Translations under genes and position numbers: made by a program
Shown here: positions 1 to 43,167 of the stretch, one piece after another
Position numbering within the stretch: position 1 is the first letter of the stretch
How the letters are laid out: each line of letters opens with the position of its first letter
Virus record (IMG/VR): IMGVR_UViG_3300047440_000037
Location: 1-43,167 of that record
Strand: one strand, 5' to 3'
Source of the DNA: a virus
DNA: 43,167 nt
The notes under the pieces: generated by a model
What the model was told of the DNA's origin: nothing
Database searches by the model: none
Seen by the model: the letters and a program-made list of their open reading frames with translations, nothing else

Positions 1-425
1 GACGCTGATCTGAGTAAGGCGTTGGACGCCTCAGACGAGCTAGGCGGCTGGCGTAACGAACTACGCAGCGAAGCCATGCGGCGTATTATGAATATGGACC
101 GCATCATCGACGGGTATAAGGTGGTGAAGGCGCGCAAGCAGCGCACGGTACTGGACCCCCTCAAGCTGATCCAGCGCGTATGGGATGAAATGGGCATTGA
201 GTGGGCGCGGCGTATGCTGCCTGACCTAGCCTGGGTTCCCAACCTACAGCCTACGCTGCCGGAAGCTTTAAAGTGTATTGGCACGCCCAAGCACATTGAA
301 GACGTTATTAAGCAATACGCCCGCCAGAATAAAATGAAGCGGGGTGAGTGGAAAACCCTTTACGATACCATCGTGGGGGCGTATATTCGAGAAACCAACA
401 GCGGCCTTACATTGGAAAAGGCCAT
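1..425. repeat. Left copy of imperfect terminal direct repeat
   Basis: This segment matches 42743-43167 over its whole length without gaps. Bases 1-101 and 371-425 are identical, and I count about 49 mismatches between 102 and 370. Both copies lie in the same reading frame of the DUF2800 nuclease gene and encode nearly the same protein. The simplest reading is an overlap of a circular or terminally redundant genome in which two strain alleles were assembled at the two ends. Confidence 0.9.
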
Positions 426-504
426 TGATGGCAGGCCAAGCCATAGACGCGGCTCTGAGTTTGGCTCACTACAACAACCGCCAAGCAGCACAACAGTACT
501 TTAA
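1..504 (+). CDS. DUF2800 RecB-like nuclease, C-terminal part
   Basis: This is the 3' part of a gene whose 5' part is at 42035-43167; the frame is open from base 1. Joined across the circle at 42742/1, the gene encodes about 403 residues, a normal size for DUF2800 proteins (PD-(D/E)XK RecB-like nucleases found in phage recombination and replication cassettes). The 167 residues here form the helical C-terminal region and contain none of the catalytic motifs. The stop codon TAA at 502-504 lies inside a CTTTAAA motif. DUF2815, DNA polymerase, VRR-NUC and SNF2 helicase genes follow, the order often seen with this family. The break is a contig edge, not a biological truncation. Confidence 0.85.
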   Translation, partial: DADLSKALDASDELGGWRNELRSEAMRRIMNMDRIIDGYKVVKARKQRTVLDPLKLIQRVWDEMGIEWARRMLPDLAWVPNLQPTLPEALKCIGTPKHIEDVIKQYARQNKMKRGEWKTLYDTIVGAYIRETNSGLTLEKAIDGRPSHRRGSEFGSLQQPPSSTTVL

Positions 505-524
505 AACAGCAAAGGATACTAAAG

Positions 525-1211
525 GTGACTAAGCCCTATACTGACCAGCCCAACGGAAAACCAATCTTCAACGAGTTCATTACGCCCGTTGGTAAGGTCG
601 TACACTGCTACCACGATAAGCCCCAACTCAACACTACCGAGAAAACGAACCTCCCGGTACTCGACGAGAATGGCATCCAAAAGGCAGACTTTAAAGTTAC
701 CCTGTGGTGGTCGAAGTCTGAACTGAACAGCACCCTTATCACTCTCCGTACGCTCGCTGCGACTACGCGCGATCAAGCTTGGGGACCGGGTGCGGCGACG
801 GACAACTGGTTCCGCCTTGAACCGTTCCTGCGTGATGGGGATAGTCCTGAACACAACACTATGAAGCGCGAGTACTTGTTCGGCGGCGTCTATCTCAATT
901 TCAAGACTAAAGCCATCCCGACCCGTCACGCTACGGGACAAGTGACCTACGCGGGCGCTCCCGGCCTTATTGGCCCCCACAACGAAGACCTACTGCCTAC
1001 CGATATGTACGCTGGCTGTATGGCCCGTGTTTCCGGCATCATGTTTGGGACCGAGTATTCCGGTCGCAATTTCATCAGCGTACGCCTCAACAATATCCAA
1101 AAGGCCGCTGACGGGGAACGCATGGGCGGGGGCGGTAAGCCGGACGCGAAAAAGCAATTCGATCCCCTCGCCACCGCGCCGGAAGGTGGCTTCGGTACGA
1201 CCGTCCTTTAA
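525..1211 (+). CDS. DUF2815 family ssDNA-binding-like protein
   Basis: The 228-residue product resembles DUF2815 proteins, phage proteins thought to act as single-stranded-DNA-binding or recombination-mediating factors next to DUF2800 nucleases and family A polymerases. The N-terminal half is beta-rich and the tail is low in complexity, with a run of glycines near residue 200, as in many SSB-like proteins. The start is taken as GTG at 525, 20 nt after the nuclease stop and preceded by AAAGG. The TAA stop at 1209-1211 is embedded in CTTTAAAG. The role is inferred from family and position; no catalytic residues are expected. Confidence 0.8.
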   Translation: MTKPYTDQPNGKPIFNEFITPVGKVVHCYHDKPQLNTTEKTNLPVLDENGIQKADFKVTLWWSKSELNSTLITLRTLAATTRDQAWGPGAATDNWFRLEPFLRDGDSPEHNTMKREYLFGGVYLNFKTKAIPTRHATGQVTYAGAPGLIGPHNEDLLPTDMYAGCMARVSGIMFGTEYSGRNFISVRLNNIQKAADGERMGGGGKPDAKKQFDPLATAPEGGFGTTVL

Positions 1212-1212
1212 A

Positions 1213-1572: not shown

Positions 1573-3734
1573 GAACGCACATAGATTGGGAAAGCCGTAG
1601 TCTCGTTGACCTACTGAAACTAGGTGAACATGCCTACGCGCGCCATTTCTCGACCACGCCATTGATGCTTACTATCGGGACAGCGCCCAAGGGGCAGCAA
1701 CCGACGTTTGATACTATCGACTTCTTTAAAATACCCGGCTACGCGGAAAGCCGATACCCCAACCGGCAAGAGGGCGATCCGCTACTTAATTCCTTTAAAG
1801 TACCATGCCCGCCAGCACTGCTCGCGGCGATTGAACGGGGCGACGTGATCGTCGCCCACAACGCCCGTTTTGAGCAAGCCATATGGTATTACATTTGCCA
1901 TCTGGATTGGGGCTGGCCCATGCCCGCCAATTGGTCCTGCACCGCTGCTAGAGCGCGGTACTACGGTATTCGCGCCAGCCTAGACGGAGCCGCTAGTGAC
2001 CTTGAAGTACTGTCGCAGAAAGACGCTCGCGGTAAGCAATTTATCAACGACTTCTGCAAGCCCCGCAAGTACCAAGGCCCTAAGAAAGATAACATCGTTA
2101 AAGAACTTTGGTACGAGCCGCATCAGAACCCAGCCGGGTGGCAAGCGGGTATCGAATACTGTACTACTGACGGTATGGCCGAGGCGGACGTTGACGCCAT
2201 ACTCCCCGACCTGCCCCCGTTTGAGCAAGCGGCGTGGCTTTGGGACTTCGCCATCAATACGCGCGGCGTACCTATTGACCTTGAGAGCGTCGAACGAGCC
2301 ATAGCGTACTCCGAGCACTTCACGCTTGAGAGCGAGAAACACTTTAAAGAGATCACCGACCTGCGGCCTACCCAGCGCGACCGGGTACTGGAATACCTGC
2401 AACAGCGCGAGGAAATCGCTGACCTGGGCGACCTGCGGAGTAAGACTTTAAAGCGCCTAGTGACTGCCGACTTCCCCGAAGACCTACGCGACGCCATCAA
2501 CATACGCCTGGACAACTCCCTGGCCTCTGTAAAGAAGCTGGTTACTATGGCGCGGGTGACGGACCCGCTGGATTGTAGGGCGCGCGGCGGTCACTTGTAC
2601 GGCGGGGCGCATACGATGCGCTGGTCCCACAAGCGCGTACAGACCGGCAACATGAAGCGGTCGGACCCCGAAGTCCTGGCCCAAATGTTCGCCTACCTCA
2701 CCGGGAACACCTGGGGTGCCCAACCGGAGAGCCCGCTAGGCGTCCTGGGGGCCTCGCTGACGGCCCGTGAGCGCCTCCCGTGGGTGGATGCAGCCGAATG
2801 GCGCTTCTACCGCCCCCTGGCCGCTCTAAGCGTCTCCATGAAGGGGTTCATTCAGGCCATCCCCGGCCATGAACTGATCGACGCCGACTACAGCCAGATC
2901 GAAGCCCGCGTACTGGCGTGGCTGGCGCGGTGTATGTGGCTCCTAGACGCCTTCCGCGTCGGGCAAGATCCGTACGTGAAATTCGGTGCGGAACATATGT
3001 ACAACCGCGCGTATGACGACTGCTTCGAGTTGGTCGGGAACAAGCGGCAAGTACGGAAAGACTTTAAACGTCAGCGCCAGATCGCCAAGTCAGCCGTGCT
3101 GGGCGCGGGGTTCGGCCTTGGGAAGCGCAAGTTTGTTGAGTACTGCGACAACTCCGACCTGATTATCACGGAAGCCGAGGCGGATATCACGATCAGCGCG
3201 TACCGCGCAGCGCACCCGGAGATTGTCGCGTTTTGGTCGCGCGTGGAAGCCTGCGCCATCGGGGCGACGGCGAGCCCCGGCCAACGCTTCGCCCTGGCAG
3301 GTACGGACGTGAGTTTCTATACTTGGCACATCGACGCAGAACGGTACTGGCTAGTGTGCGAGCTACCGAGCGGACGCTGCCTGTACTACTACCGGCCCAA
3401 AATCCAGCTACAGCAGTACTACGGCAAGGTGAAGGATCAGCTTACCTTCCGTACCGAGTGGGTGGGCCGGTCGTACCGGGAAGCCACGTACGGCGGGAAG
3501 CTTACCGAGAACATCGTACAGGCCATCGCGCGTGACGTGCTGGTCGTTGGCGGTTTAAAGGCCGAGGCGGCTGGATACCCGACGATCATGCTGGTACACG
3601 ACAGCAACGTGACCATGCCTTTAAAGGGCCACGGCTCTCCCGACCATCTGGCGAATGTAATGTGCCAGCCGGAACCGTGGTACACCGATTTACCCGTAGC
3701 AGCAGAAGCAAAGAGAATGGATCGCTACCAATGA
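1557..3734 (+). CDS. polA: Family A DNA polymerase with 3'-5' exonuclease domain
   Basis: This 725-residue replicative polymerase has an N-terminal DnaQ-like proofreading domain (D10-W-E12 as Exo I; V-A-H-N-A-R-F-E as Exo II near residue 100) and a C-terminal Pol I palm and fingers. Motif A is D-A-D-Y-S-Q-I-E with catalytic Asp444, motif B lies around K-S-A-V-L-G-A-G-F-G, and motif C is V-H-D-S with Asp682. Motif C is usually V-H-D-E, so Ser683 replaces the common glutamate while the essential aspartate is kept. There is no 5'-3' exonuclease domain. The gene carries seven TTTAAA motifs read as Phe-Lys or Leu-Lys. The start ATG at 1557 lies within the end of the HNH gene. Confidence 0.93.
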   Translation: MAEPLRTHIDWESRSLVDLLKLGEHAYARHFSTTPLMLTIGTAPKGQQPTFDTIDFFKIPGYAESRYPNRQEGDPLLNSFKVPCPPALLAAIERGDVIVAHNARFEQAIWYYICHLDWGWPMPANWSCTAARARYYGIRASLDGAASDLEVLSQKDARGKQFINDFCKPRKYQGPKKDNIVKELWYEPHQNPAGWQAGIEYCTTDGMAEADVDAILPDLPPFEQAAWLWDFAINTRGVPIDLESVERAIAYSEHFTLESEKHFKEITDLRPTQRDRVLEYLQQREEIADLGDLRSKTLKRLVTADFPEDLRDAINIRLDNSLASVKKLVTMARVTDPLDCRARGGHLYGGAHTMRWSHKRVQTGNMKRSDPEVLAQMFAYLTGNTWGAQPESPLGVLGASLTARERLPWVDAAEWRFYRPLAALSVSMKGFIQAIPGHELIDADYSQIEARVLAWLARCMWLLDAFRVGQDPYVKFGAEHMYNRAYDDCFELVGNKRQVRKDFKRQRQIAKSAVLGAGFGLGKRKFVEYCDNSDLIITEAEADITISAYRAAHPEIVAFWSRVEACAIGATASPGQRFALAGTDVSFYTWHIDAERYWLVCELPSGRCLYYYRPKIQLQQYYGKVKDQLTFRTEWVGRSYREATYGGKLTENIVQAIARDVLVVGGLKAEAAGYPTIMLVHDSNVTMPLKGHGSPDHLANVMCQPEPWYTDLPVAAEAKRMDRYQ

Positions 3735-4990: not shown

Positions 4991-6682
4991 ATGTCCCTTA
5001 TGACGATGCCCGACCTGCTGTCCGACGAGCCGTTCCATTGGGACGAGCGCCGGGTACGCATGAGCGATGGCGCTCCCATGCGCTCCTACCAGCTTCGGGC
5101 GGCGTACAAGATATTCACTGGCGAGGCTCGCCGCTGCCCGTACACGGGCGTCAAGAACGGCCCTGAGCGCGACGGTACGGCGGTCCATATCGACCCCGGC
5201 CTGGGTAAGACCATTGCCGCCCTGACCGCTATCAGCGAGTGGGTCAAGCAAGGCGTGGTGAAGAAGCCCGTACTTGTCGTGGCCCCGATCAAGGTATGCG
5301 AGACGGTGTGGCGTCAGGAGGCCCAGCAATGGAGCCACACGCGCCATCTGACCTTCCAGCTTATCCGGGGCGACGAGAAGACCCGCGCGTTCGGTCAGAA
5401 GCGCCGTACTAACATACACCTAATTAACCCCGAAATGCTCCAATGGTTGCAGAAGTACATTCGCGCCGATTGGGAGGGGGAGTACGACGCTCTTATCATT
5501 GACGAGAGCAGCATGTTTAAAGATCACCGGGCCAAGCGGTTCCGCGTGCTGTCCAACTACGGCACGCGCATACAGCAGCGCGGCCCTGACGGCAAGGTCA
5601 TTCGCTGCCCCATCACCGACGCCACGTCACCCGTACCCGCGCCACGCTTTAAACGTACTGCCGTCCTGACCGGCACGCCCGCCCCCAGCGGCCTACAGAA
5701 CGTGTGGGCTCCCTTCTACCTACTGGATCACGGCGACCGCCTGCACAAGCAGTTTGACACCTTCCAGGGGCGCTACTTCCGCAAGACGCAGCAAACGTCC
5801 GCGCACAGCTTCAAGTACGCCGCCCTGCCAGGGGAAGACCAAGCCCGGCCAGCGTGGCAAGCTGCGGACGGTAGTAAGGAACGTATTCACGAACTGATCG
5901 CGGATATCACCATCGAGCTTAACGCCGCAGACTACGGCGTACTGCCCAAGCAGCTACCACCTGTAAAGCACTACGTTGACCTGCCCGCCGAAATCCTGCC
6001 GTACTACCGCCAGCTAGAGAAAGAGGCGGTATTCGAAATGCTTAAAGACCCCATCGTTGCGGCCAACGGGGGCGCTAAGAGTATGATGTGCTGGCAGATT
6101 TGCAACGGCGCAATTTACGGCACGGACGAGAACGGTAAGAAGGAATGGAAGCACGTTCACGACCGTAAGCTGGACAAGCTAGTCGAGGTAATCGACGGCC
6201 TAGACCAGCACGCGCTTATTCCCTACTACTTCAACCATGACCGGGACAGGATCATCGCTCGCTTTAAAAAGGAGGGTATCCCGTACGGTATCATCAACGC
6301 CAGTAACGCGGAGAGAATGATTGACCAGTGGAACGCCGGGGGCATCCCCAACTTACTCATCCATCCTCAGTCAGCCGGGCATGGCCTCAATCTGCAATTC
6401 GGCGGGCACAACCTTATTTGGTTCAGCACTATATGGTCTTTGGAGCGATACTTACAGACAAACGCCCGTTTGGCCCGTAGCGGGCAGAAGAATGTGGTGG
6501 GTATCCACGTCATCATGGCTCGCAACACTACTGATGACGTACGTTATAATTCGTGGTTCGAGCGGGGCGACGAGCAGACCCGCTTCCGACAAGCCACTTT
6601 AAAGTATCAAAAGCAAATGGGGATCGACCTGTACGCACACCCGGAAATCACGAATACGCCCTTTGGAGGAATAACGCTATGA
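4991..6682 (+). CDS. SNF2-like DEAD/DEAH helicase
   Basis: This 563-residue superfamily 2 ATPase has Walker A D-P-G-L-G-K-T (Lys73), motif II D-E-S-S (Asp171, Glu172), motif III L-T-G-T-P-A-P, and motif VI Q-T-N-A-R-L-A-R-S-G-Q near residue 490. Both RecA-like lobes are present. It matches the phage SNF2/DEAD helicases that accompany VRR-NUC, DUF2800 and family A polymerase. Likely roles are fork remodelling or recombination-dependent replication. It starts immediately after the VRR-NUC stop, in the context CTTTAAATG. Confidence 0.92.
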   Translation: MSLMTMPDLLSDEPFHWDERRVRMSDGAPMRSYQLRAAYKIFTGEARRCPYTGVKNGPERDGTAVHIDPGLGKTIAALTAISEWVKQGVVKKPVLVVAPIKVCETVWRQEAQQWSHTRHLTFQLIRGDEKTRAFGQKRRTNIHLINPEMLQWLQKYIRADWEGEYDALIIDESSMFKDHRAKRFRVLSNYGTRIQQRGPDGKVIRCPITDATSPVPAPRFKRTAVLTGTPAPSGLQNVWAPFYLLDHGDRLHKQFDTFQGRYFRKTQQTSAHSFKYAALPGEDQARPAWQAADGSKERIHELIADITIELNAADYGVLPKQLPPVKHYVDLPAEILPYYRQLEKEAVFEMLKDPIVAANGGAKSMMCWQICNGAIYGTDENGKKEWKHVHDRKLDKLVEVIDGLDQHALIPYYFNHDRDRIIARFKKEGIPYGIINASNAERMIDQWNAGGIPNLLIHPQSAGHGLNLQFGGHNLIWFSTIWSLERYLQTNARLARSGQKNVVGIHVIMARNTTDDVRYNSWFERGDEQTRFRQATLKYQKQMGIDLYAHPEITNTPFGGITL

Positions 6683-16447: not shown

Positions 16448-18015
16448 ATACTAGCCCTTACGGTCTGCTCCATCAGTATGCGAGTTGCAAACCAATGTAT
16501 CTGCGAGGATAGGGACGCCGCCTCAAACCATAGCGAGGCAATGTACCCGATCCTGCCTACGGGGATAAAAATATTCTGCGTCGTCGCCGCGCCAGCCCAA
16601 TAGTCTTCGCCCCACTTGGCGACGTTCCAGATAGCCCCCTGCGGCGGTGTAATCGCGCTAATTACTAGGGGCTTCTCGCTCTCGAAATTGACGTTAATAC
16701 CACAGGCGATGCCGGGTATGCCGTCAGCTTGCAGCGCCAGGGACGCCATGTGGAACTGCTTATCCATGACGCCGATATTTTGGTCGTTGTCGAACGTGTT
16801 CCACGCCTGACGAGCAACGCCAACGACTTCTTTACCGTTATCCGTGACACCCTCGTCAGCCATGATAACGCGACCGTCGAAGGTGCTAAAGTACGCACGA
16901 CGGTTAAAGAGGCACCAGTCCAGCGCGGGCTGCTTGACGAACCGGCCCCAGGCGTTCGTATCCGTGTTCATGGCGAATTGTTGGTACTCGCCGGAGATAG
17001 CGCCCGTGATCGGCATGTTGATTATAAGCATCTGGCCGCGCGGGTAGATCATACCGCACCAGCCATGCACGAATTGATACTTGGTGCTGTCGGTGTAGTG
17101 CCGCCCCAATTTAGCGGTGATGTACTCGTCGCCCTTATTACCCTCACCCGACTGGCGGATTTGAGCGAAGGACATAACGCCTTCCTCGGTGATGAAGTAC
17201 ACGTCCGACCGGAAGCGCAGCCAGCCCTTCTTACCGATAGGCGGCGGACCGTAGTACCTGCCCACCAGCGACCATGTAGCCGAGTTGGAGGGGTCGATGC
17301 CCGAGTACAGGATATACTCGCCCTCCGTGGTCACGAACAGCGCGAAGTCCTGCGGACCCGTGCCGGTATCGCCCATCGAGAAGGACGTGATCGTGGCGAG
17401 ACTGCCACCCTTTAAAGATACTTGGGACAGGTCGAAGTAGGACGCTGCACCTTGGATCGCCCCCACGGCGAGGTAGTAGAACCCGAGTTGGTCTTCTTGG
17501 GCGAGAAACACACGACCTTTAAAGGTATGCGGGGAGTGCAGCGAGTTGGGGCCACCCGTAACGCCGGTAATCACCAGCGGGGCGGTCGCGACACCGTTAA
17601 AGGCAATAGGTTGATCGAGGCCCGAGAAGATCAGGAGCCACTGAGTAAGCGCGTTCGAGAACATCGTAGTCTGAACACGATTACCATTGCGACCCGAAGT
17701 CAGCGGGGGACCGACCGGCCCCGGCGACGACACATTGTAGATACTGCCGTTGCTGAAACCCAGCATAACCGCGCCAGTACCGCCCGTGTAAACTTCCAGG
17801 CTCTCCACCGGCCCCGGCAGTCCCGTGGCGCTATTTAAATGCCCTCCACGGGTATCAACGGACGTGTTGTGCGGGAACCAGTTGTCCAGTACGAACGCAT
17901 CGTTGTGCGGCATGGACGAGTAACTGTCACGCCCGTTCAGCCCGCCAGTCGGGGCCACAAGCATCGCGGGGGCGCTACGGCGCGTACGCTTAGGCTCACG
18001 ATGCTTTACAGGCAT
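16444..18015 (-). CDS. Tail nozzle/stopper-like beta protein, 523 aa
   Basis: The protein is beta-rich, with D-N-W-F-P-H-N and D-T-R-G-G-H-L-N near the N-terminus and repeated short strands, as in beta-propeller or nozzle proteins of podophage tails (P22 gp10-like packaged-DNA stabiliser or T7 gp12-like tail tubular B). The genes around it, adaptor upstream and fibre and ejection proteins downstream, match that role. The start shares TAATG with the previous gene, and a CTGTAAAG variant motif covers codons 2-5. The exact family is inferred. Confidence 0.7.
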   Translation of the reverse strand: MPVKHREPKRTRRSAPAMLVAPTGGLNGRDSYSSMPHNDAFVLDNWFPHNTSVDTRGGHLNSATGLPGPVESLEVYTGGTGAVMLGFSNGSIYNVSSPGPVGPPLTSGRNGNRVQTTMFSNALTQWLLIFSGLDQPIAFNGVATAPLVITGVTGGPNSLHSPHTFKGRVFLAQEDQLGFYYLAVGAIQGAASYFDLSQVSLKGGSLATITSFSMGDTGTGPQDFALFVTTEGEYILYSGIDPSNSATWSLVGRYYGPPPIGKKGWLRFRSDVYFITEEGVMSFAQIRQSGEGNKGDEYITAKLGRHYTDSTKYQFVHGWCGMIYPRGQMLIINMPITGAISGEYQQFAMNTDTNAWGRFVKQPALDWCLFNRRAYFSTFDGRVIMADEGVTDNGKEVVGVARQAWNTFDNDQNIGVMDKQFHMASLALQADGIPGIACGINVNFESEKPLVISAITPPQGAIWNVAKWGEDYWAGAATTQNIFIPVGRIGYIASLWFEAASLSSQIHWFATRILMEQTVRASI

Positions 18016-27666: not shown

Positions 27667-27931
27667 GAAATGTACTATGGAAGGGGTAGGGTTGAAGTAT
27701 GGTACTATGTTGACTACTGAATTTTTGGAAAATTTTGGTGCGGTGGTATATATTTACAACCGTACCCGCCCTGCCGCTGAACCCGGTGGCATACTTACTA
27801 GTGCAGTAAGTACTAGATACCTTTACAGTTGACGAGTACGAGTAAATTACATATGTAATATTAAATACGCGAGAGCTTTACAGTCAATGAGTACTAGTAA
27901 GTATTGAATACAGTACTAAGCAAGTAATGAA

Positions 27932-27987
27932 TACTGTAAAGGTCATGCATACTAGTAGGTATGTACTGTAAAGGTCATGCATACTAG
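27932..27987. repeat. Two 24-bp direct repeats, 32 bp apart
   Basis: Bases 27932-27955 and 27964-27987 are identical. The shared core includes GTAAAGGTCATGCATAC and starts with the variant motif CTGTAAAG. Two further CTTTACAG copies in inverted orientation lie at 27821 and 27876, each followed by similar GAGTAC-AGTAA sequence. The arrangement resembles operator or iteron arrays. Confidence 0.75.
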
Positions 27988-28101
27988 GTAGCAGTAGCGG
28001 GAGGGTGCCCGGCGCCTATAAAGGTCGTGAGTATTGTAGTTTCAAGTATTCGCTACTGAGTATTGTACTCAAACTAGTAGGCGAAGTAAGTAGAGAGGTA
28101 G

Positions 28102-28117
28102 TGTAAAGCGCTTTACA
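28102..28117. repeat. 16-bp perfect palindrome
   Basis: TGTAAAGCGCTTTACA is its own reverse complement and is made of two inverted TGTAAAG half-sites joined at GCGC. The same half-site recurs through the region. This looks like a dimeric operator for a DNA-binding protein. Confidence 0.7.
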
Positions 28118-28389
28118 GTGCTTCCGTACTCAGCTTGACTGTAGAAAATTCCTCTCTATGTATGAGTATGCATGCATGCATCAAAACACCCATATATATA
28201 CAAGTATAGTTAGAGTCGTGTTCAAATCTACATATATAGGAGCTTCACCGTAGCGATTTTGGAACTCCCGATATCTCGAACCTCCAATTTCCCGAGCAAA
28301 ATCAATGGGTTACGGAAATCGCTCGACAGTATAGATTGCATCGAATATTCTAATCTATGTTCACCCCGATTATACATTAGAGGCTAGTA

Positions 28390-29310: not shown

Positions 29311-29502
29311 ATGACTTACCGCGAATTAGCCGCGCGCCTCGCAACCCTCTCGCCCGAGCAACTGGACGCGCAAGTCACCTATTGGGATAGCGTGACTGAC
29401 GAATATCACGCGCTGACGCACTTGGACGTGGCGCAAGTCACTGACGTGCTGGACGCGTCGCATCCGTACCTTACCGCCGCGTCCGCGTGGCAACCGGCTT
29501 AA
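29311..29502 (+). CDS. Hypothetical protein, 63 aa
   Basis: The start ATG at 29311 has the leader AGGAACCGCACCC, repeated almost exactly before the next gene at 29533. The N-terminus T-Y-R-E-L-A-A-R-L-A-T-L-S-P-E-Q-L-D resembles small phage and bacterial proteins in which a helix-turn-helix-like hairpin is followed by an acidic strand (V-T-Y-W-D-S-V-T-D-E-Y). Function unknown. Confidence 0.7.
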   Translation: MTYRELAARLATLSPEQLDAQVTYWDSVTDEYHALTHLDVAQVTDVLDASHPYLTAASAWQPA

Positions 29503-29532
29503 CCCTGTAAAGCAACCGAAGGAACCGCACCC

Positions 29533-30150
29533 ATGACGACTCTGTATGACACCCGCGAACAGTGGCTGAACGCTTTCATTGAGGCGGCGCGCCCGCAGTT
29601 CGAGGCGGTAAACGCGCCTCTCCCGTCCAACCTCCGCGTCAGCGTCGGTTTCACATCGCGCGGCGCTGGACGTGGCAAGCGCGTCCGCATCGCTGAGATA
29701 TGGTCTGACAACGCCAGCGCTGACGGACACTACGAGATTTTCGTCACGCCTACGCTCCCTGACGTGGCGCGCGTTTGCGATGCGGTAACGCATGAACTGA
29801 TCCACGGCGCGGTTGGTCTAGACGAGGGACACGGCGCGCATTTCAAGCGCGTGGCAACGTCGCTAGGCCTGACTGGCCCCGCTACCGCCACGGTCGCGGG
29901 CGAGGGATGGTACGCGTGGGCCCTTCCGATCATTGAAGCCCTAGGTCCTATGCCCTACGGCGCGCTCTCGGACGACGGCGCATCGTCGCGCCGTAAGAAA
30001 CAGGCAACGTCGCTACTCAAGCTGCAATGCCCGGCGTGCGGGTTCCTGGCGCGCGTCACTAACAAGCATATCGCGCCGCATCCGTTCCTGAACTGCCCCG
30101 TTCCTGACTGCGCGGGCGAACTCATTTGCGAGGCGACCGAAGACGAGTAA
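29533..30150 (+). CDS. SprT-like zinc metalloprotease with zinc ribbon
   Basis: The 205-residue protein has the metalloprotease signature H-E-L-I-H (His87, Glu88, His91) followed by G-H-G-A-H-F (His100/His103), which supplies the third zinc ligand as in SprT/Spartan proteins. A C-terminal zinc ribbon with C-P-A-C and N-C-P-V-P-D-C ends the protein. Spartan-type enzymes degrade DNA-crosslinked proteins; a phage role could be clearing protein from DNA or removing a host factor. It is followed by the MoxR ATPase and an unknown partner, and CTGTAAAG lies 28 bases upstream. Confidence 0.87.
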   Translation: MTTLYDTREQWLNAFIEAARPQFEAVNAPLPSNLRVSVGFTSRGAGRGKRVRIAEIWSDNASADGHYEIFVTPTLPDVARVCDAVTHELIHGAVGLDEGHGAHFKRVATSLGLTGPATATVAGEGWYAWALPIIEALGPMPYGALSDDGASSRRKKQATSLLKLQCPACGFLARVTNKHIAPHPFLNCPVPDCAGELICEATEDE

Positions 30151-30221
30151 GAGCGCAACCGGAGGCGCGGTACGCCGCGCTTCCCATTGCACCCCTACAT
30201 GCACTGTAAAGGCACCCTCAA

Positions 30222-31529
30222 ATGGCACGCGATACCGCCACATACGATCCAACGCAGGACGCCGCGCAACGCATCCTGCGCGCCTATCCGACTATGAACG
30301 TTGGCAAGTACGTCCCGATTGACGCCCGCAACGCGTTACACGCGCTTGCGACGCAATGCGGCGCTACCACGTACGCCGCTGATTGCGCGTCCGACGCTGA
30401 CTTGCTCGGACTGTGGCGCGTGGCGCTGAAATCGCCGCAGAGTGCGCGGCGTACGGCTGAGAAGCTAAATGCGCGGCTGGACGCGTACGGCGCGCGCACG
30501 CCCGCTCCCTCGCCCGACGCCAGCACGCCGCAACCCTCGGACGCGTCGTTTGACGTGGCGCAAGCTATACGCGCCGCAACCGAACCGCTGGCGCAACGTA
30601 TCGCCACGCTAGACGCTGACGTACGCGCGGACTTCGCGGACCTACTCGCCAGCGCGTCGCGTAGCACGTTGGACGCTATGCGCGACGCGCTGGCGACCGA
30701 GGCGCACGCAGCCGCGACGCGCGCTTTACAGTCGATGCAGCCGACGCGCGTAGAAGTCACGCGCCCGGATATGCCCGCTATACCTCTCGGATTGGCGCAC
30801 TGTCAGACGCCGCGCCTCATTCGGTATCTGGCGGCGGGCGTGAATGTGTACCTGTACGGGCCAGCCGGTTCGGGCAAAACCACGGTCGCGAAGCAAGTCG
30901 CGGACGCCTTTAACGTGCGTGCGTACTACGCCGCGAAAATCTCAGACGAATTCCAACTGCTAGGGTTCATGCAACCGGCGACCGAGAAGCACCCGGAAGG
31001 CGTCTGCGTACGCACGGCGATGCGGGAAGCGTACGAATTTGGCGGCGTCCTACTGTGGGACGAATTCGACGCCAGCGACGCCAACGCGGTCGCAGCGATG
31101 AACATGGCAACGGCGAACAAAATCTGCCAATTCCCGGACGCGCTTGTGCGTATGCACCCTGACTTCAAACTGATTGCGGCGGGTAATACGGCGCTGACGG
31201 GCGCGACCGACGAATATCAGGGACGCAATCAGCAGGACGGCGCGGCGGTTGACCGCTTCGTGTTCCTTAAATTCGACTATGACCTAGACCTAGAGCGGGC
31301 CATCGCCCCGAACGCAGATTGGTGCGCGTACGTGCAGACGGTACGCGAGTGCATCGCAGAACGCGGCCTTAAGCATCTAGTGACGCCTCGCGCGACGCTG
31401 GACGGCGCGGCGCTGATTGCGTCGGGCGATACCTGGACGGAAGCCGCTGACGCGTGCATCTGGAAGGGACTAGACCGCGATACCGTGGACACCCTGCGCG
31501 ACGCCGCGCGCTATGCCTTTAAAGGTTAA
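30222..31529 (+). CDS. MoxR-type AAA+ ATPase
   Basis: The 435-residue protein has a helical N-terminal region of about 190 residues with coiled-coil character, then an AAA_5/MoxR core. Walker A is Y-G-P-A-G-S-G-K-T (Lys219), Walker B is L-L-W-D-E-F-D (Asp280, Glu281), sensor 1 is A-A-G-N-T, and an arginine lies in D-R-F-V-F-L. MoxR ATPases usually work as chaperones with a VWA-domain partner to remodel or activate complexes. The next gene is the likely partner. The leader has CTGTAAAG 11-18 bases before the ATG. Confidence 0.9.
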   Translation: MARDTATYDPTQDAAQRILRAYPTMNVGKYVPIDARNALHALATQCGATTYAADCASDADLLGLWRVALKSPQSARRTAEKLNARLDAYGARTPAPSPDASTPQPSDASFDVAQAIRAATEPLAQRIATLDADVRADFADLLASASRSTLDAMRDALATEAHAAATRALQSMQPTRVEVTRPDMPAIPLGLAHCQTPRLIRYLAAGVNVYLYGPAGSGKTTVAKQVADAFNVRAYYAAKISDEFQLLGFMQPATEKHPEGVCVRTAMREAYEFGGVLLWDEFDASDANAVAAMNMATANKICQFPDALVRMHPDFKLIAAGNTALTGATDEYQGRNQQDGAAVDRFVFLKFDYDLDLERAIAPNADWCAYVQTVRECIAERGLKHLVTPRATLDGAALIASGDTWTEAADACIWKGLDRDTVDTLRDAARYAFKG

Positions 31530-31533
31530 GACC

Positions 31534-32370
31534 ATGCAAACCCGCGTTACCCGCACCCTCGCCCGCTATCACTTCGCCAGCCTGCGCGAGTTGGCCCAAT
31601 ACATTGACGCCACCCCGCGCGTCTGGAAGCAAAACGCGGGCGCGAAAGAGTACGCCTCGCAAGATTGGGACTTGAACGCCGGGTATGACGGCGCGGTGGA
31701 AATGACGCGCAGCGGCTGGCTCGAAGGCGCGCAGCGCGCGCAGAAGGCTTTAAAGGCTTTCGCGCCCGCGACGCCGCAACCCTCGCGCAAGCTTGACGTT
31801 GTGGGCCAGCGCGTCAGCGTCCCACACTTCCTGACGGGCCAGCCTAAGAACATGGTACGGCGCGTGCGTACGGCTGACGCGGGTTCCGGGCGCGTCCTGA
31901 CGCTCGCCGTTAGCGTGGTCGCGTCTGCGTTTACGTCAGCCGAAGCAATGTCCAATTACGGCGTTGCGGTCGCGCAGTACGTCAATCAGTTGGAGCGCAG
32001 CGGCGTCCGCGTTCACCTGATAGGGACGCTGGCGGTGGAAAGCGACGCGCAGCGGCTGGCCCTAAGCTGGACGATTAAGAGCGCGGGCCAGCCGCTCAAT
32101 CTCTCGGCGCTCGCCTTCGCCATTGGACACCCGGCGATGCTGCGTCGCATCGGGTTTGCGTTCATGGAACGCCAGCGCGACACCCGCGAGTTTCCCTCAT
32201 ACGGTGGAGCGCGCGACGCGCTCTTGTCGGACCTGATCGACGCGCCCGCTGGCGTTGTCATCCTTAATGGCATGAAGCAAGCCAACACCCACGCGCGGAC
32301 GCCGGAGACGGCGCTTGCGTACGTCAGCGCGCAGATTGACGCCGCGCAGAAGACCCGGAAGGCGGCCTAA
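31534..32370 (+). CDS. Unknown MoxR-partner candidate, 278 aa
   Basis: I start at ATG 31534, just after AAAGG. The middle (V-L-T-L-A-V-S-V-V-A-S onward, then Y-V-N-Q-L-E-R-S-G-V-R-V-H-L-I-G) is arranged like strand-helix-strand of a von Willebrand A fold, but the metal-binding D-x-S-x-S is missing. It resembles uncharacterised phage proteins (DUF7192-type by memory) encoded next to MoxR ATPases. The adjacency suggests a degenerate VWA-like adaptor; this is inferred from position and pattern. Confidence 0.7.
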   Translation: MQTRVTRTLARYHFASLRELAQYIDATPRVWKQNAGAKEYASQDWDLNAGYDGAVEMTRSGWLEGAQRAQKALKAFAPATPQPSRKLDVVGQRVSVPHFLTGQPKNMVRRVRTADAGSGRVLTLAVSVVASAFTSAEAMSNYGVAVAQYVNQLERSGVRVHLIGTLAVESDAQRLALSWTIKSAGQPLNLSALAFAIGHPAMLRRIGFAFMERQRDTREFPSYGGARDALLSDLIDAPAGVVILNGMKQANTHARTPETALAYVSAQIDAAQKTRKAA

Positions 32371-33493: not shown

Positions 33494-33736
33494 ATGACCG
33501 ACGCTCGCCCGCCTTGGCCCGCATCCGTACGCCCGACGCGAGTAAGGCGGGACGAGCCCGACCAGCAGGAATTGGACCTAGAGCCGTTCCACTTGGACGC
33601 GGCACCTTTAAAGGACGTGTGCCCGCCCCCTACGCGCTACGGGGGCGACGAGTACAAGTGTCGCACCTGCGGCGTCATTTGGAGTATTGACGAGCCCCGC
33701 CCGCCGTGCGATCATACTGCATCAACCAAGGGATGA
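33494..33736 (+). CDS. Small zinc-finger-like protein, 80 aa
   Basis: The N-terminal half is proline-rich and acidic. The C-terminal half has C-R-T-C-G-V-I-W-S then C-D-H, a possible treble-clef or ribbon zinc site. It follows the previous stop by 2 bases. Function unknown. Confidence 0.65.
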   Translation: MTDARPPWPASVRPTRVRRDEPDQQELDLEPFHLDAAPLKDVCPPPTRYGGDEYKCRTCGVIWSIDEPRPPCDHTASTKG

Positions 33737-34702: not shown

Positions 34703-34894
34703 ATGACTGACAAACCCAAGGCACGACGCGGGTTCGCCGCGATGGACCCGGAGAAGCGGCGGGAAATCGCCCGCAAGGGCGGCGCGAGCGTCAAGGCGTA
34801 CAACCGTAGCTTCGCACGCGACAAGGCCCTGGCGATCAGCGCCGGGAGCAAGGGCGGGACCAACTCGCGCGGCGGCGGAAGGCCCAGCAAATGA
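34703..34894 (+). CDS. KGG-repeat stress-protein-like small protein
   Basis: Residues 10-52 carry two KGG units: G-F-A-A-M-D-P-E-K-R-R-E-I-A-R-K-G-G and A-I-S-A-G-S-K-G-G. This resembles bacterial KGG-motif stress proteins (YciG/YmdF-like), small basic disordered proteins. Phages carry similar genes, of unknown role, possibly nucleic-acid binding. CTTTAAAG lies immediately before the ATG. Confidence 0.72.
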   Translation: MTDKPKARRGFAAMDPEKRREIARKGGASVKAYNRSFARDKALAISAGSKGGTNSRGGGRPSK

Positions 34895-35116: not shown

Positions 35117-35425
35117 ATGAACCCGAACAGCAAGGGCTACCCAGCCGAGTTGATCTACGACAACTACAACGACGCGCTCATTACGATGAGCGAGGCGGTG
35201 GAGCAATTCATCGTACTCCTGGCCGGGGAGGATGCGCCCGCGCTGCCACGCACGCCCAACGGCAGGCTCCGCGCCTTCCTCGACGTGGCCCGCAACAAGG
35301 GCCAAGTGGCCCACCACCACGGCAAGCCCCCGGAGGCGTGCCCGTACTACCCCAACGAAGACCGCGAAGCGTGGTTTGAGGGGTACTACCACGAACGCCT
35401 GAACGCCTCCGTGGGAGAGCTTTAA
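35117..35425 (+). CDS. Hypothetical protein, 102 aa
   Basis: The start is in CTTTAAATG with GAGG upstream, and the stop is in the next CTTTAAATG. It is helical, with Y-N-D-A-L-I-T-M-S-E-A-V-E-Q-F near the N-terminus and a C-P-Y-Y-P-N-E-D motif late. Family not recognised. Confidence 0.7.
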   Translation: MNPNSKGYPAELIYDNYNDALITMSEAVEQFIVLLAGEDAPALPRTPNGRLRAFLDVARNKGQVAHHHGKPPEACPYYPNEDREAWFEGYYHERLNASVGEL

Positions 35426-35686: not shown

Positions 35687-36163
35687 ATGCCCCAACTCCC
35701 GATCACCAACGAAATACGAGCGGACGACCTAGCCAGTGCCTTTAACAGCAGCACCGAGCGTCGGCTGTGGCGGGCTACGAAGGGAGGGACGCGCTTGCTC
35801 CCGACCGTCCGCTTTATCTCGTCAGGCTCGATGGTACAGATCACGTACCATTTAAAGTACCAGCACTTCACGGTGGTCTTCTCCCGTGCAAGCTGCGCCT
35901 TTGGCGACTTCCTCGCCAGTACCTTCCGCGACCTGTCGGCCATCCTGGCGGCGCTCAAGGCGTCTGGATACCCCTTCGCCGCTGCCGTGGACCCCGCCGC
36001 CGTCCTACGGGTGGAGTACGACCCCCGCTCCAAGGTCGCAACCGTGGCTGTAGCCCTGACCGGCGACGACTGGCAGGACGCCGAGCCGATGCCTTTAAAC
36101 GTACCGGAGAGGAGCGAAAATAATACGAAAATAACTGTTGACCCGCCCGAGTACGACCTGTAG
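35687..36163 (+). CDS. Hypothetical protein, 158 aa
   Basis: ATG at 35687 follows CTTTAAAGTAG, where the previous gene stops. It is mixed alpha/beta with W-R-A-T-K-G-G-T-R-L-L near residue 28 and strands around residues 45-60. It contains two TTTAAA sites. I do not recognise a family. Confidence 0.7.
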   Translation: MPQLPITNEIRADDLASAFNSSTERRLWRATKGGTRLLPTVRFISSGSMVQITYHLKYQHFTVVFSRASCAFGDFLASTFRDLSAILAALKASGYPFAAAVDPAAVLRVEYDPRSKVATVAVALTGDDWQDAEPMPLNVPERSENNTKITVDPPEYDL

Positions 36164-36203: not shown

Positions 36204-36854
36204 ATGTCTGAACAACCCGCTCCCAACCCGGCCATTGCCGAGTTTGAATTTCCGCAGATCACCGGCAAAGTCACGTTCGACTGCGCGACCATCCCCGCTG
36301 ACGTGCGCCTCGACTTCCTCAAGGGCGCTGTCCGCGCCTACATCGCCAACCGGCTGAACGCCGCCGCGACCCGCTACAGCAAGGACGAAACCGTCGCCGC
36401 CTGGGCGCAATACGAAGCCGCGACCGCCTCCGATCCGCTGCAAAGCATCGTGCCGCAGCCGACCGCTGCGCTGCCCGACGAGCCGAACTTTAAAGAGGTC
36501 TACGACCGCGCTGTCGCTGACCTCGCCGCTGGTACGATCCGCCGCCAGGGTGCCGAGCCGAAGGCCCGGAAGACCAAGGACCCGCTGGTTTCGCTGGTCA
36601 CGGACGCCGTTGTCCGCGCCATCTACAACGACCGGCGCGCGGCGAACCCCAAGTACTCGTTCTTCGACGCCCGCAAGGAAGTCGGGACCGACGGCGTGGC
36701 GTACCTGCACGCCATGATCGAAGCCAAGGTCGCGGAGGGCGTTGACCGCGCCCAACTCGAAGCGTCCCTGGAAGAAAAGTACATGGGACCGGCCAAGCGT
36801 ATGCTGGGCCAGGAAGTCAGCAAGAAGGGCGCTGCTCTCCCGTCGATCCTGTAA
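36204..36854 (+). CDS. Hypothetical protein, 216 aa
   Basis: AAGGAACAACCCA precedes the ATG at 36204. The protein has an N-terminal strand (I-A-E-F-E-F-P-Q-I-T-G-K-V), helical middle and charged C-terminal helices. Its codons are strongly biased to C and G at third positions, suggesting high expression. It is the last gene before a strong terminator. The family is unknown; a structural or DNA-binding role cannot be excluded. Confidence 0.72.
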   Translation: MSEQPAPNPAIAEFEFPQITGKVTFDCATIPADVRLDFLKGAVRAYIANRLNAAATRYSKDETVAAWAQYEAATASDPLQSIVPQPTAALPDEPNFKEVYDRAVADLAAGTIRRQGAEPKARKTKDPLVSLVTDAVVRAIYNDRRAANPKYSFFDARKEVGTDGVAYLHAMIEAKVAEGVDRAQLEASLEEKYMGPAKRMLGQEVSKKGAALPSIL

Positions 36855-40430: not shown

Positions 40431-40431
40431 C

Positions 40432-40851
40432 TTGTCCGGTATTCTGGAAGCCATCTACGCCGAGTTGCAGGCCATTCGCGCCCAACTCGCCCAACAGCAG
40501 CCCGCTCCGCAGCAGTACGCCCAAAGCGCTCCGCAGCAGCAGCAGTATATCGCTCCGCAGCCCGCCCCGCAACAGCAGTACATCGCTCCGCCGCAGCAAG
40601 CACCCGCCCCGCAGCAAGCACCCGCCCCGCAGCAGAACATCACCGCCGACACCATCCTGGCGCTGATCCAGCCGCACATCGGCAACCCCGTGACGAAGGA
40701 AGCCCTCGGCGGCGCTATGCGCGCTATGGGCATCAACGCGCTCCCGGAGACGCAGCCGCACCAATTCGCAGAACTGTACGCGCGCTTCCAAGCCGTACTG
40801 GCCCAGCCGCAGCAGCAGCAGCAGGCCCCGCAGTCCGCGAACATCATCTAG
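40432..40851 (+). CDS. Pro/Gln-rich protein with helical ends, 139 aa
   Basis: The start is TTG at 40432, chosen because AAAGGAG lies seven bases upstream and the frame gives a good N-terminal helix (S-G-I-L-E-A-I-Y-A-E-L). Residues about 22-68 are a low-complexity run of Gln, Pro and Ala; residues 70-125 are a compact helical domain. It may be a replication accessory tethered by a flexible linker. The CAG/CCG repeats are expandable tracts. Confidence 0.7.
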   Translation: MSGILEAIYAELQAIRAQLAQQQPAPQQYAQSAPQQQQYIAPQPAPQQQYIAPPQQAPAPQQAPAPQQNITADTILALIQPHIGNPVTKEALGGAMRAMGINALPETQPHQFAELYARFQAVLAQPQQQQQAPQSANII

Positions 40852-40876: not shown

Positions 40877-40926
40877 CCCCGGTACGCCGTTTGGCCCCAC
40901 CTCTCGCGTACCGGGGACAACCTTTA
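40877..40926 (+). terminator. 11-bp perfect stem-loop in an intergenic gap
   Basis: CCCCGGTACGC (40877-40887) and GCGTACCGGGG (40916-40926) are perfect complements around a 28-base loop. It lies between the Pro/Gln-rich gene and the next gene. There is no T-tract, so it may act as an attenuator or RNA stabiliser. AAAGGAG with the CTTTAAAG motif follows. Confidence 0.5.
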
Positions 40927-40937
40927 AAGGAGCCACC

Positions 40938-41461: not shown

Positions 41462-41477
41462 CAGAAGGCACTTTAAA

Positions 41478-41813
41478 GTGAGCGAAGACTCGATCCCCGA
41501 CACCCCGTACGTCCCTGCCGTGGAGCCGACCCCGCCCCCGCCGCCTGCCGAGCCGCCCGAGCCGACAGTACCGTCTGAACCCCCGCCTACGGCCCCCGAA
41601 GGTGACGTACAAGTCGGTGCTACCACAGTACACGCGGTTACGCCGTCTAGCGTCGTGCCGCCCGAGCCGTACAACCCGCCCGCGCCGACCCTGGAACCAA
41701 CCGCCCCGGAAAGCGTTGACGACGGCGCTACGGTCGAGGTTGAAGACCCCGACGAGGAGGAAGACGACGGCGAGTTTGAAGCCGACGAAGGCGACGAGCC
41801 CGACGAGGAGTAA
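41478..41813 (+). CDS. Disordered proline-rich, acidic-tailed protein, 111 aa
   Basis: GTG at 41478 lies in CTTTAAAGTG. Nearly the whole protein is proline-, glutamate- and alanine-rich, with P-P-P-P-P-A-E-P-P-E-P-T near residue 15-26, and the last 30 residues are almost all Asp and Glu. It resembles an acidic intrinsically disordered protein, such as a DNA mimic or a scaffold-like tail. This could block a DNA-binding host protein, but that is conjecture. Confidence 0.62.
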   Translation: MSEDSIPDTPYVPAVEPTPPPPPAEPPEPTVPSEPPPTAPEGDVQVGATTVHAVTPSSVVPPEPYNPPAPTLEPTAPESVDDGATVEVEDPDEEEDDGEFEADEGDEPDEE

Positions 41814-41860
41814 ACCGCGCCGCGACGGCTTCGCGGTACTTCAAGGCGAGGTACTTTAAA

Positions 41861-42025
41861 ATGTCTGACGACAACATGGGCTACGGCGGGCGCGCGATCC
41901 ACGTCCCAGCCAGTTCGACTAAGGCGGGCGTCACTCCCGAGCCCGTTGAGACTACGGCTGACGTGGAGCCTGCCGACGACAAGCGCGACAAAACGCGCGG
42001 CGACAAGACGAAGCCGCTGGTGTAA
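41861..42025 (+). CDS. Small charged protein, 54 aa
   Basis: The ATG follows CTTTAAA directly. The product starts M-S-D-D-N-M-G-Y-G-G-R-A-I-H-V-P and ends in a lysine/aspartate-rich tail (D-D-K-R-D-K-T-R-G-D-K). It is likely disordered. It sits 9 bases before the DUF2800 gene. Function unknown. Confidence 0.6.
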   Translation: MSDDNMGYGGRAIHVPASSTKAGVTPEPVETTADVEPADDKRDKTRGDKTKPLV

Positions 42026-42034
42026 GAGCAGGGC

Positions 42035-43167
42035 ATGACAGTACACGCTAAGAACCGGCCACCCTCCGCTGCGAAGCGTTGGCTGTCATGCCCGTATTCT
42101 GCCCTGGTTGAACCCCTGTACCCGCGCGACGACACCGCGCAGTCTTTAAAGGGCGATACCTGGCACGAACTGATGCAGGCGCTAATTACGTTCGGCACGC
42201 TCCCGCTGGAAGCCGACCCCGACGCCGCCGACGCGCTGCAAGACCTGTACGACTATGTACTGGCACGCGTTAAAGTAGCTGGCCCCGGCGCTCGCGTGTA
42301 CGTCGAAGTTACCCTGACCATCCCCGAGACAGGGGAAATCGGTACTATCGACATTCTGATCGTCGGCCCGTACTTGATCGAAGTGATCGACTTGAAGTCA
42401 GGTTACATCGTCGTTGACGTGTTCCAGAACGCGCAAGAGCTAACGTACCTCCTGGGTGCCATCGCCCTGCACGGCGAGCGTCCGCAGTACCGGCTAACCA
42501 TCCACCAGCCCAACTACGACCATATCGACGGCACGCTGCGCCATTGGTCGCCCGTGGACCTTGACATATACGCGCACCGGACAGCCGTACTCGCGTCCGT
42601 GGAGCAGCCTGATCGCATCTTCGCAGGCCACCATTGCAAGGCCACGTACTGCCCCCATCGCGGCGCGTGCGAGCCTTTCCGCCAGTACGCTTTAAATGAC
42701 CTCTCGCTAGGCTGGCACAGCAGCGAGTTGAAGTCCATGAGCGACGCTGATCTGAGTAAGGCGTTGGACGCCTCAGACGAGCTAGGCGGCTGGCGTAACG
42801 AACTACGCAGCGAAGCCATGCGGCGTATTATGAATATGGACCGGCGCATCGACGGCTACAAAGTCGTGAAGGGCCGCAAGCAGCGCACAATACTTGATCC
42901 TTTAAAGGTCATCCAGCACGTATGGGACGAATTGGGTATCGAGTGGGCGCGTCGGATGATACCCGACCTAGCCTGGGTGCCAAATCTGCAACCCACGCTC
43001 CCTGACGCTTTAAAGTGTATCGGCACCCCCAAGCACATTGAAGACGTTTTAAAGCAGTACGCCCGTCAAAATAAATTTAAGCGGGGAGAGTGGAAAACCC
43101 TTTACGATAACGTCGTGGGGGCGTATATTCGAGAAACCAACAGCGGCCTTACATTGGAAAAGGCCAT
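42035..43167 (+). CDS. DUF2800 RecB-like nuclease, N-terminal and catalytic part
   Basis: The gene runs off the contig and continues at 1-504, giving about 403 residues. Residues 103-106 are G-T-I-D and 116-122 are E-V-I-D-L-K-S, so Asp106, Asp119 and Lys121 form the PD-(D/E)XK active site. Q-N-A-Q-E-L-T-Y-L follows, like the RecB QxxxY motif. Cys19 with Cys201, Cys206 and Cys212 are arranged like the iron-sulphur cluster of Cas4/AddB-type nucleases. It likely resects DNA ends for recombination-dependent replication. Confidence 0.9.
   Translation, partial: MTVHAKNRPPSAAKRWLSCPYSALVEPLYPRDDTAQSLKGDTWHELMQALITFGTLPLEADPDAADALQDLYDYVLARVKVAGPGARVYVEVTLTIPETGEIGTIDILIVGPYLIEVIDLKSGYIVVDVFQNAQELTYLLGAIALHGERPQYRLTIHQPNYDHIDGTLRHWSPVDLDIYAHRTAVLASVEQPDRIFAGHHCKATYCPHRGACEPFRQYALNDLSLGWHSSELKSMSDADLSKALDASDELGGWRNELRSEAMRRIMNMDRRIDGYKVVKGRKQRTILDPLKVIQHVWDELGIEWARRMIPDLAWVPNLQPTLPDALKCIGTPKHIEDVLKQYARQNKFKRGEWKTLYDNVVGAYIRETNSGLTLEKA
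42743..43167. repeat. Right copy of imperfect terminal direct repeat
   Basis: This is the partner of 1-425: same length, identical first 101 and last 55 bases, about 49 mismatches in between. The two alleles encode segments differing at about 12 residues. This copy has three TTTAAAG motifs (42901, 43009, 43048), while the left copy has only one, at 267. Confidence 0.9.

Follow-up and report, generated by a model that had tools for sequence, protein, structure and literature searches.

Why should a tailed phage carry one A+T-rich palindrome at about a hundred places, inside as well as outside its genes? The question is raised by the IMG/VR virus record IMGVR_UViG_3300047440_000037 (43,167 bp, 59.6% G+C), referred to at its full length as the window, in which the hexamer TTTAAA and the octamer CTTTAAAG are found in great excess. 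In coding and non-coding DNA alike, the word lies at the centre of a symmetric footprint of 18 bp, RRrNNC-TTTAAA-GNNyYY (R, purine; Y, pyrimidine). On balance, with somewhat more confidence than doubt, we take it to be the two-fold symmetric site of a homodimeric protein that binds double-stranded DNA and regulates or organises the genome as a whole.

By exact count the window holds 104 copies of TTTAAA and 58 of CTTTAAAG, where an order-1 Markov model, used for expectations throughout, predicts 5.2 and 0.37. A sequence-only reading of the window had reached about 104 and about 58 by hand and spoken of a roughly 30-fold excess; the counts hold. Among all 8-mers of the window CTTTAAAG has the highest z, and the same octamer read backward occurs 0 times against 58. 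Under a maximal-order model the excess shrinks (104 TTTAAA against 88.9 expected), because the sub-words are inflated too, and TTTAAA is still the first-ranked hexamer. Of the 150 TTAA in the window, 104 sit within TTTAAA. The outermost cores start at 267 and 43048, and the density of CTTTAAAG is about one per 744 bp. The contig ends (1-425 and 42743-43167) are 88.5%-identical copies of one 425-bp stretch, part of an exonuclease gene; the record is therefore probably one full turn of a ~42.7-kb genome, the overlap at its ends coming from two strain variants, and one TTTAAA site is counted twice (267 = 43009).

The 104 cores divide into 58 CTTTAAAG, 20 CTTTAAAT/ATTTAAAG, 15 CTTTAAAA/TTTTAAAG, 9 CTTTAAAC/GTTTAAAG and 2 ATTTAAAT. 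The spectrum of mismatches is narrow. With both strands pooled, CTTTAAAT is found 20 times (0.55 expected), CTGTAAAG 19 times (0.82), CTTTAAAA 15 times (0.63) and CTTTAAAC 9 times (0.85); the highest z among the remaining one-base variants belongs to CGTTAAAG, with 4 copies against 1.4. The commonest one-base deviations are those at the first and last base. Exceptions at inner bases, taken over eight genomes, are CTGTAAAG (5.1-fold), CTCTAAAG (4.0) and CGTTAAAG (2.7).

The excess survives a codon-preserving shuffle, which the sequence-only reading had named as a test. When synonymous codons were permuted in one pool over the 50 genes called in the window (by a simple caller of our own, which missed some genes), 500 shuffles gave 3.7 ± 1.9 coding TTTAAA (maximum 11) against 74 observed, and 0.9 coding CTTTAAAG (maximum 4) against 41. 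The TTTAAA spelling is used by 35 of 40 Phe-Lys pairs, and 39 of 54 TTA codons sit in the word. The Phe-Lys pairs themselves are doubled (40 against 18.8 expected); the protein sequence itself is bent.

Individual sites are under purifying selection, as judged from 14 genes aligned among eight CTTTAAAG genomes and compared in ordered pairs of related genomes, which are not independent. Phe-Lys spelled TTTAAA is retained in 408 of 530 pairs (77%), the control spellings TTCAAG, TTTAAG and TTCAAA in 26 of 99, 4 of 52 and 6 of 49, respectively. Control dipeptides of two-fold-degenerate residues are retained in 6,232 of 18,056 cases (35%); with A or T as the last base of both codons the figure is 534 of 2,572 (21%). 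Similarly, TTA is kept in 273 of 525 pairs inside the word (52%) and in 117 of 1,096 elsewhere (11%). The sites are both held and replaced: among 102 aligned coding positions, 59 are occupied in one genome only, 16 in at least five of the eight and two in all eight (Table 1). The two strain copies at the contig ends have one site in common, and two sites of the end copy are absent from the start copy.

The footprint was derived from the 614 TTTAAA of nine genomes, with the strand read outward from the dyad. Codon phase would put a pyrimidine at dyad ±9 in 455.6 of the 855 coding flanks, and 628 have one (z 11.9); of the 373 non-coding flanks 279 have one, against 184.8 expected (z 9.8). Positions ±8 and ±7 show a weaker preference of the same kind. 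It is the non-coding flanks and the size of the effect (75% against 50%) that carry the claim. Variation on one side of the dyad is independent of that on the other (highest z of any pair 2.4), which fits recognition by half-sites; an RNA hairpin or stem is ruled out, since the flanks do not covary. The inner-base variants CTGTAAAG (42 sites), CGTTAAAG (39) and CTCTAAAG (26) of eight genomes have 63-77% pyrimidine on both outer sides, without codon correction. In a blind scan of the 16 palindromic tetramers in eight genomes, TTAA comes first, with z 11.6 at ±9, and in single loci the outer signal is clear in most of the long ones.

The sequence-only reading had suggested searching related phages for the word, and seven whole-contig relatives carry it: G001, G005, G006, G007, G008, G009 and G011 hold 24-46 CTTTAAAG against 0.3-1.0 expected. 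Genomes with the word span 46-60% G+C. In more distant relatives the inner word drifts around a constant TTAA. G012 uses ATTTAAAT (15 copies) and G017 CTTTAAAG (50); G018 and G019 use CTATTAATAG, CATTAATG and TATTAATA, G021 uses CATTAATG and CATTAAAG, G016 uses CATTAAAG, and G020 has mixed words such as AGTATTAAGA and CTTAATAC. Whatever the inner word, a pyrimidine excess at ±9 is found in every lineage with sites (z 14.7, 4.1, 6.8, 3.1, 4.7, 4.1 and 10.1); at this position, fixed beforehand from the first group of genomes, z is 4.1 in G012, 6.8 in G017, 3.1 in G018/G019, 4.7 in G021, 4.1 in G016 and 10.1 in G020. The TTAA flanks of G013, G014 and G015, which lack the word, show nothing above z 3.5. 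In a polymerase tree the sisters G012 and L027 (bootstrap 100) differ in their commonest word, ATTTAAAT against CTTTAAAG; five aligned sites are common to both, and the three alignable CTTTAAAG of L027 are broken in G012. The tree groups G013 with G015 (100), and the nodes that separate loss from repeated gain are weak (62, 70). Among loci retrieved by a capsid search, those below 82% identity hold CTTTAAAG at most once; one of them, L051 (70%), has 12 TTTAAA against 4.2 expected. Unrelated phages do not share the excess: six of six annotated outside phages have 0 CTTTAAAG and TTTAAA at or below expectation (one of them examined for 50,000 of its 56,024 bases).

Along the window the cores are spaced evenly. 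With the early gap set aside, the coefficient of variation (CV) of the spacing is 0.70, against 1.0 for random placement, the null model used for spacing (0 of 2,000 trials), and only 8 gaps are shorter than 100 bp where 23.7 are expected. The CV lies below random at P≤0.021 in seven of nine genomes. Because close pairs are so scarce, it seems that a stretch must have one site nearby and that a second one adds little. The sites had been said to occur on both transcription arms, in coding and non-coding DNA. This is correct overall, the exception being the part of the early arm between the cores at 27044 and 31518. There, variants fill in: 11 of the 19 copies of CTGTAAAG/CTTTACAG are found at 27821-30731, and with the TGTAAAG-type variants included the count rises to 126 sites, no gap exceeds 1,653 bp and the genome-wide CV is 0.72 (P 0.0005). 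A small cluster of these variants between the divergent arms is likely to mark a control region. A site-free early region is not a general rule: it holds for the window and nearly for G005, not for the other seven genomes, and the early stretch of seven relatives contains 3-9 TTTAAA.

Sites are most crowded at gene junctions: the nine pooled genomes have 6.08 per kb at up to 15 nt from a start or stop, compared with 2.36 in the remaining non-coding and 1.29 in the remaining coding DNA. The 20 nt preceding each of 412 starts together contain 87 sites, where 13.8 are expected. A signal confined to gene junctions, as the sequence-only reading had also considered, is not supported, given the 395 of 614 sites (64%) that lie within genes away from junctions.

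Excess, footprint, spacing, selection and drift of the inner word are established. Two equal half-sites point to a protein dimer, and that the word is the site of such a dimer is held with considerable confidence. A homodimeric, sequence-specific protein would read RRrNNC-TTTAAA-GNNyYY on double-stranded DNA, and the phage would maintain some 120 sites (104 TTTAAA and about 20 of the TGTAAAG type), one per ~340 bp, in coding as well as non-coding sequence, more closely packed just ahead of start codons and forming a small cluster where the arms diverge. Once bound, the protein would most likely either silence or block transcription from dispersed positions, in concert with the clustered sites, or serve as a nucleoid protein specific to the phage. 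A dispersed regulator or genome organiser fits best because the sites are dense, conserved in position, two-fold symmetric and in small part clustered between the arms. Transcriptional silencing or regulation is a plausible function, held at rather less than even confidence; compaction, packaging or protection of the genome is a fainter prospect. The earlier proposal of a binding site for a protein that coats, packages or segregates the genome is supported as to the binding site, by the 18-bp footprint in coding and non-coding DNA, the site-by-site conservation and the drift of inner bases; coating, packaging or segregation would be one possible role. More speculatively, and with some scepticism on our part, the sites might form a code that the phage writes for itself: a symmetric address every ~340 bp, read by its own dimer, which would coat or silence the genome or mark it as self, code and reader drifting together so that sister phages come to use different dialects.

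Candidate readers were compared across 18 genomes or fragments, 15 with sites and three without (G015, G014 and the fragment G013), using sense-gene families present in at least seven records. Three neighbouring early genes occur in most records with sites and in none without (Table 1). The ATPase and the DUF7192 protein are missed in G016 and G021, which are fragments, and in G017, which has only ~2 kb between the small terminase gene (TerS) and the first called gene, too little to judge by. Neither is an obvious DNA binder. DUF7192 has no relative in the PDB by sequence, and it is not sufficient for sites, as Rhizobium phage P106B has it and lacks CTTTAAAG in the 50 kb examined. The conserved 216-aa helical protein at 36204-36854 remains a candidate reader; its model (predicted local distance difference test, pLDDT, 81) matches HMG boxes at Z 3.7, a score that helical models can reach by chance, and has no Foldseek match at E≤0.001. 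Its neighbour at 35687-36163 resembles one repeat of the TATA-binding protein (TBP), with a root-mean-square deviation of 3.1 over 83 and 2.6 over 79 residues, in a range (Z below 8) where fold matches are common by chance, and gave no sequence-profile match. It was rejected as a universal reader, being present in G015, which has no sites, and not found in G016-G021, which have them; there a different gene adjoins the homologue of 36204-36854, and absence from the fragments G016 and G021 weighs little. The zinc ribbon at 33494-33736, of a kind that the sequence-only reading had named as possible readers, is not supported either: it occurs in G015 and was not detected in G008 and G016-G021, which carry sites. 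The early protein at 28390-28881 is likewise present in G015 (profile E 1e-9) and was not found in G018-G020. Open frames on the strand opposite known genes had matching patterns too, one example being 6226-6360, which faces the helicase gene and occurs in 14 of 15; they were discounted as shadows. A host-encoded reader is conceivable, at odds clearly below even.

Table 1. Coordinates in the window of the sites and of the proteins considered as their readers
Feature	Position	Strand	Remarks
Dispersed set, 104 TTTAAA cores	266..43055		Mean spacing 376 bp outside the early gap
Early stretch without TTTAAA	27050..31517		4,474 bp between successive cores (27044, 31518); filled by CTGTAAAG/CTTTACAG variants
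Five CTGTAAAG/CTTTACAG sites (27821, 27876, 27934, 27966, 28111)	27821..28118		A+T-rich non-coding DNA between divergent arms
Site in DNA polymerase gene (Thr-Leu-Lys)	2446..2453		Aligned site in 8/8 CTTTAAAG genomes; position assigned via reading frame and site list
Site in gene 16444-18015 (Phe-Lys-Gly)	17517..17524		Aligned site in 8/8 genomes; position assigned via reading frame and site list
SprT-like protein	29533..30150	+	In 11/15 records with sites, 0/3 without; below Pfam cut-off
MoxR/CobS-like AAA+ ATPase	30222..31529	+	In 12/15 records with sites, 0/3 without
DUF7192 protein	31513..32370	+	In 12/15 records with sites, 0/3 without, as the ATPase
Conserved 158-aa protein, TBP-like model	35687..36163	+	AlphaFold pLDDT 69; best match half of TBP, Z 6.8
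Conserved 216-aa helical protein	36204..36854	+	In 13/15 records with sites (other two fragments); also in G015

Several results weigh against a dimer that regulates or organises the genome. Co-occurrence, domain and structure scans of the window proteins found no reader; no suitable known DNA-binding domain was seen among the proteins scanned, and the best structural lead, the TBP-like protein, failed on co-occurrence. Most sites are genic and have no direction, unlike known phage silencer sites. Gene content lends no support to a silencer serving lysogeny: neither an integrase nor a repressor could be recognised among the scanned window proteins, of which many small ones have no family. The evenness is not significant in G005 (P 0.79) and G011 (P 0.076) or, by CV, in G017-G019. 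Three hexamers of equal count gave CVs of at least 1.10, similar to TTTAAA with the gap included (1.16), and one of them has an even smaller share of gaps below 100 bp (0.05 against 0.08 for TTTAAA); only these three qualified, too small a word control, so the evenness rests on the random-placement null. As for the footprint, coding flanks also deviate at offsets 10 and 12 (z 4.0 and 3.7), non-coding ones not. The outer signal is weak in the short loci L005 (50%), L033 (57%), L006 (58%) and L029 (59%), and L013, without sites, reaches 79% of 34 flanks by chance. In the blind scan of the CTTTAAAG genomes GGCC (7.9), CCGG (6.2) and TATA (5.4) deviate as well, and the highest outer z in G013 and G015 together is 4.8 (GGCC). 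Unrelated tetramers thus deviate too; a large z alone is no proof, and values of 3-5 in four lineages are consistent with the footprint, not conclusive. By the same token another palindrome with an outer signal was rejected for G013, G014 and G015, the top value of 4.8 being no better than that of meaningless words elsewhere. Confidence in the dimer and in the reading as a whole was slightly lowered because of the tetramer and hexamer controls.

The alternatives differ in how much of this evidence they account for. That the word is an artefact of composition or codon usage is practically out of the question, as it is refuted by the codon shuffle, the outside phages, the non-coding footprint and the conservation. 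An operator, promoter or ribosome-binding element at each gene junction would explain the crowding of sites before start codons and the high junction density. It is very unlikely in view of the many sites inside genes, the conservation of coding sites (the 16 of 102 positions held in at least five genomes, not split by distance from gene ends) and a palindrome that has no direction; the crowding at junctions may mean no more than that a site is cheapest there. Still less probable are targets of a TTAA-centred dimeric enzyme for nicking, priming or recombination. A dimeric nuclease like I-PpoI would be in keeping with half-sites that drift over 18 bp round a constant TTAA; about 120 cut sites, however, would endanger the genome, primase recognition needs no two-fold symmetry, and no dimeric TTAA-centred nuclease was seen among the window proteins scanned.

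The strongest competitor, improbable in our estimate, takes up the methylation target also offered by the sequence-only reading and regards the word as a methylation site that is made and protected by methylation-guided mismatch repair of host or phage, its abundance being a by-product. An octamer palindrome at the observed density, deviations that concentrate at the first and last base and alternate palindromes in relatives are all in its favour, and protection by repair could also give conserved positions. A methyltransferase with a target of 6-8 bp would not, however, predict pyrimidines at dyad ±9, and the shift between the sisters G012 and L027 would require a change of enzyme. Furthermore, Pfam or PHROGs scans, which covered 42 of the 50 proteins called in the window, found no methyltransferase; the lone match, phrog_11801, covers residues 64-115 of the helicase (4991-6682).

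In the window, profile scans identify terminase, portal and head genes, which make it a tailed phage. Its replication arm is T7-like (family A polymerase, helicase, Gp2.5-like protein, exonuclease), and the structural arm, with terminase, portal and major head protein, is divergent to it. Megablast against 50,697 annotated phage records found no near relative, and scans of genome contigs for kin gave no useful relative that would point to a host. Also in the early arm are a small protein with a KGG motif and one that faintly resembles ribosome modulation factor, at a score under the Pfam cut-off (34703-34894 and 35117-35425). A C-terminal tail, LP(S/D)(I/V/L)L or SII/NII, is common to the unrelated conserved proteins 36204-36854, 40432-40851 and 28390-28881; it recurs in the primase-helicase of G017 and G019 and is perhaps a docking peptide.

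Other words are also unevenly used. In the window CCGCGG, CGGCCG, GCCGGC and GGCGCC are strongly avoided, with 0-3 copies where 38-41 are expected, a pattern like that left by restriction. GTAC, with 447 copies, exceeds the Markov expectation 2.5-fold; it is enriched 1.4-2.6-fold in G001-G015, including G013 and G015, which lack CTTTAAAG, and 2.2-2.5-fold in BUCT555, ctMlz233 and Mx8, whereas L120, part of G020, has an observed-to-expected ratio of 0.0 across 22 kb. Having no comparable footprint and being enriched in phages of both kinds, GTAC was not counted as part of the TTTAAA system. In L042 and L044, capsid-gene loci of relatives, a TATACACTTAT-like word is repeated 11-16 times.

Outside the family, viral contigs were scanned for pairs of CTTTAAAG separated by 180-210 bp and flanked by the outer Y and R, which gave at least 120 stretches. 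The matches listed include the podovirus-like contigs L240, L222, L221, L268, L253, L173, L229 and L207 (G024-G031; 34-41% G+C), with 5-19 CTTTAAAG each; G027 and G029 are near-copies. Several have their sites clustered in non-coding DNA near the small terminase gene. Five pairs of sites are spaced by 18 bp, of which two belong to the near-copies, and 9-bp spacings are found too. Their 70 pooled CTTTAAAG show a pyrimidine at ±9 in 75% of the 140 flanks, some 16 of which the search itself had forced, a figure without composition control. With the family they share a terminase (34-37% in L222, L173 and L207) and otherwise doubtful short frames only. Cultured kin of some of them have few extended sites (HTVC115P 0, CRP-1 1, HMO-2011 1). 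The word may have arisen there by convergence or may answer to a reader common to both groups.

A phage that bends its proteins to keep about 100 copies of a word must depend greatly on something that reads its DNA genome-wide; if so, viruses would have a hitherto undescribed means of marking or organising a whole genome. We know of no phage system with such a density of sites inside coding DNA, and none was found in the open-access literature searched. Among the known systems that come closest, TBP recognises the TATA box, of whose AAAG half CTTT-AAAG is a palindrome. The model of 35687-36163 resembles one TBP repeat and the word mirrors half a TATA box; it differs in that a profile match is lacking, a Z below 8 is common by chance and the occurrence of the protein does not follow the sites. 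MetJ shows that 8 bp of palindrome can suffice for a ribbon-helix-helix dimer to bind, similar to the octamer described here. MetJ boxes, however, serve few promoters, and no ribbon-helix-helix protein was found among the window proteins scanned.

The stoperators of cluster A mycobacteriophages are described as asymmetric 13-mers, bound by the L5 repressor as a monomer, mostly in one orientation to transcription and in short intergenic spaces, with up to ~30 per genome (PMC6550527, PMC9283540). Common to both systems are many dispersed sites of one kind, at which binding is presumed in our case, additional sites in promoter regions and a sequence that drifts with the phage lineage. In contrast, the present sites have a symmetric core with flanks, number ~120 per genome, are directionless and lie mostly within genes, in a window whose scanned proteins include no recognised repressor or integrase.

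HIP1 (GCGATCGC), the highly iterated palindrome of cyanobacteria, is according to PMC4390886 an 8-bp palindrome in great excess, at about one per kb, whose one-base deviations are greatest at the first and last base, which has counterparts in the alternate HIPs of some relatives, and for which an origin in methylation-guided mismatch repair has been proposed. The word described here is likewise an octamer palindrome in extreme genome-wide excess, in the window as in seven relatives, with deviations at the same two bases and alternate palindromes in relatives. It differs in residing in phages instead of cyanobacterial genomes, in being A+T-rich within genomes of 46-60% G+C, in its extra outer base at dyad ±9 and in that no methyltransferase was found among the proteins scanned. 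An origin of the HIP1 type would, by analogy, explain the abundance and the outer-base deviations, not the ±9 position. With relatives that have the word, lack it or carry a drifted form of it, this phage family makes the purpose of highly iterated palindromes directly testable.

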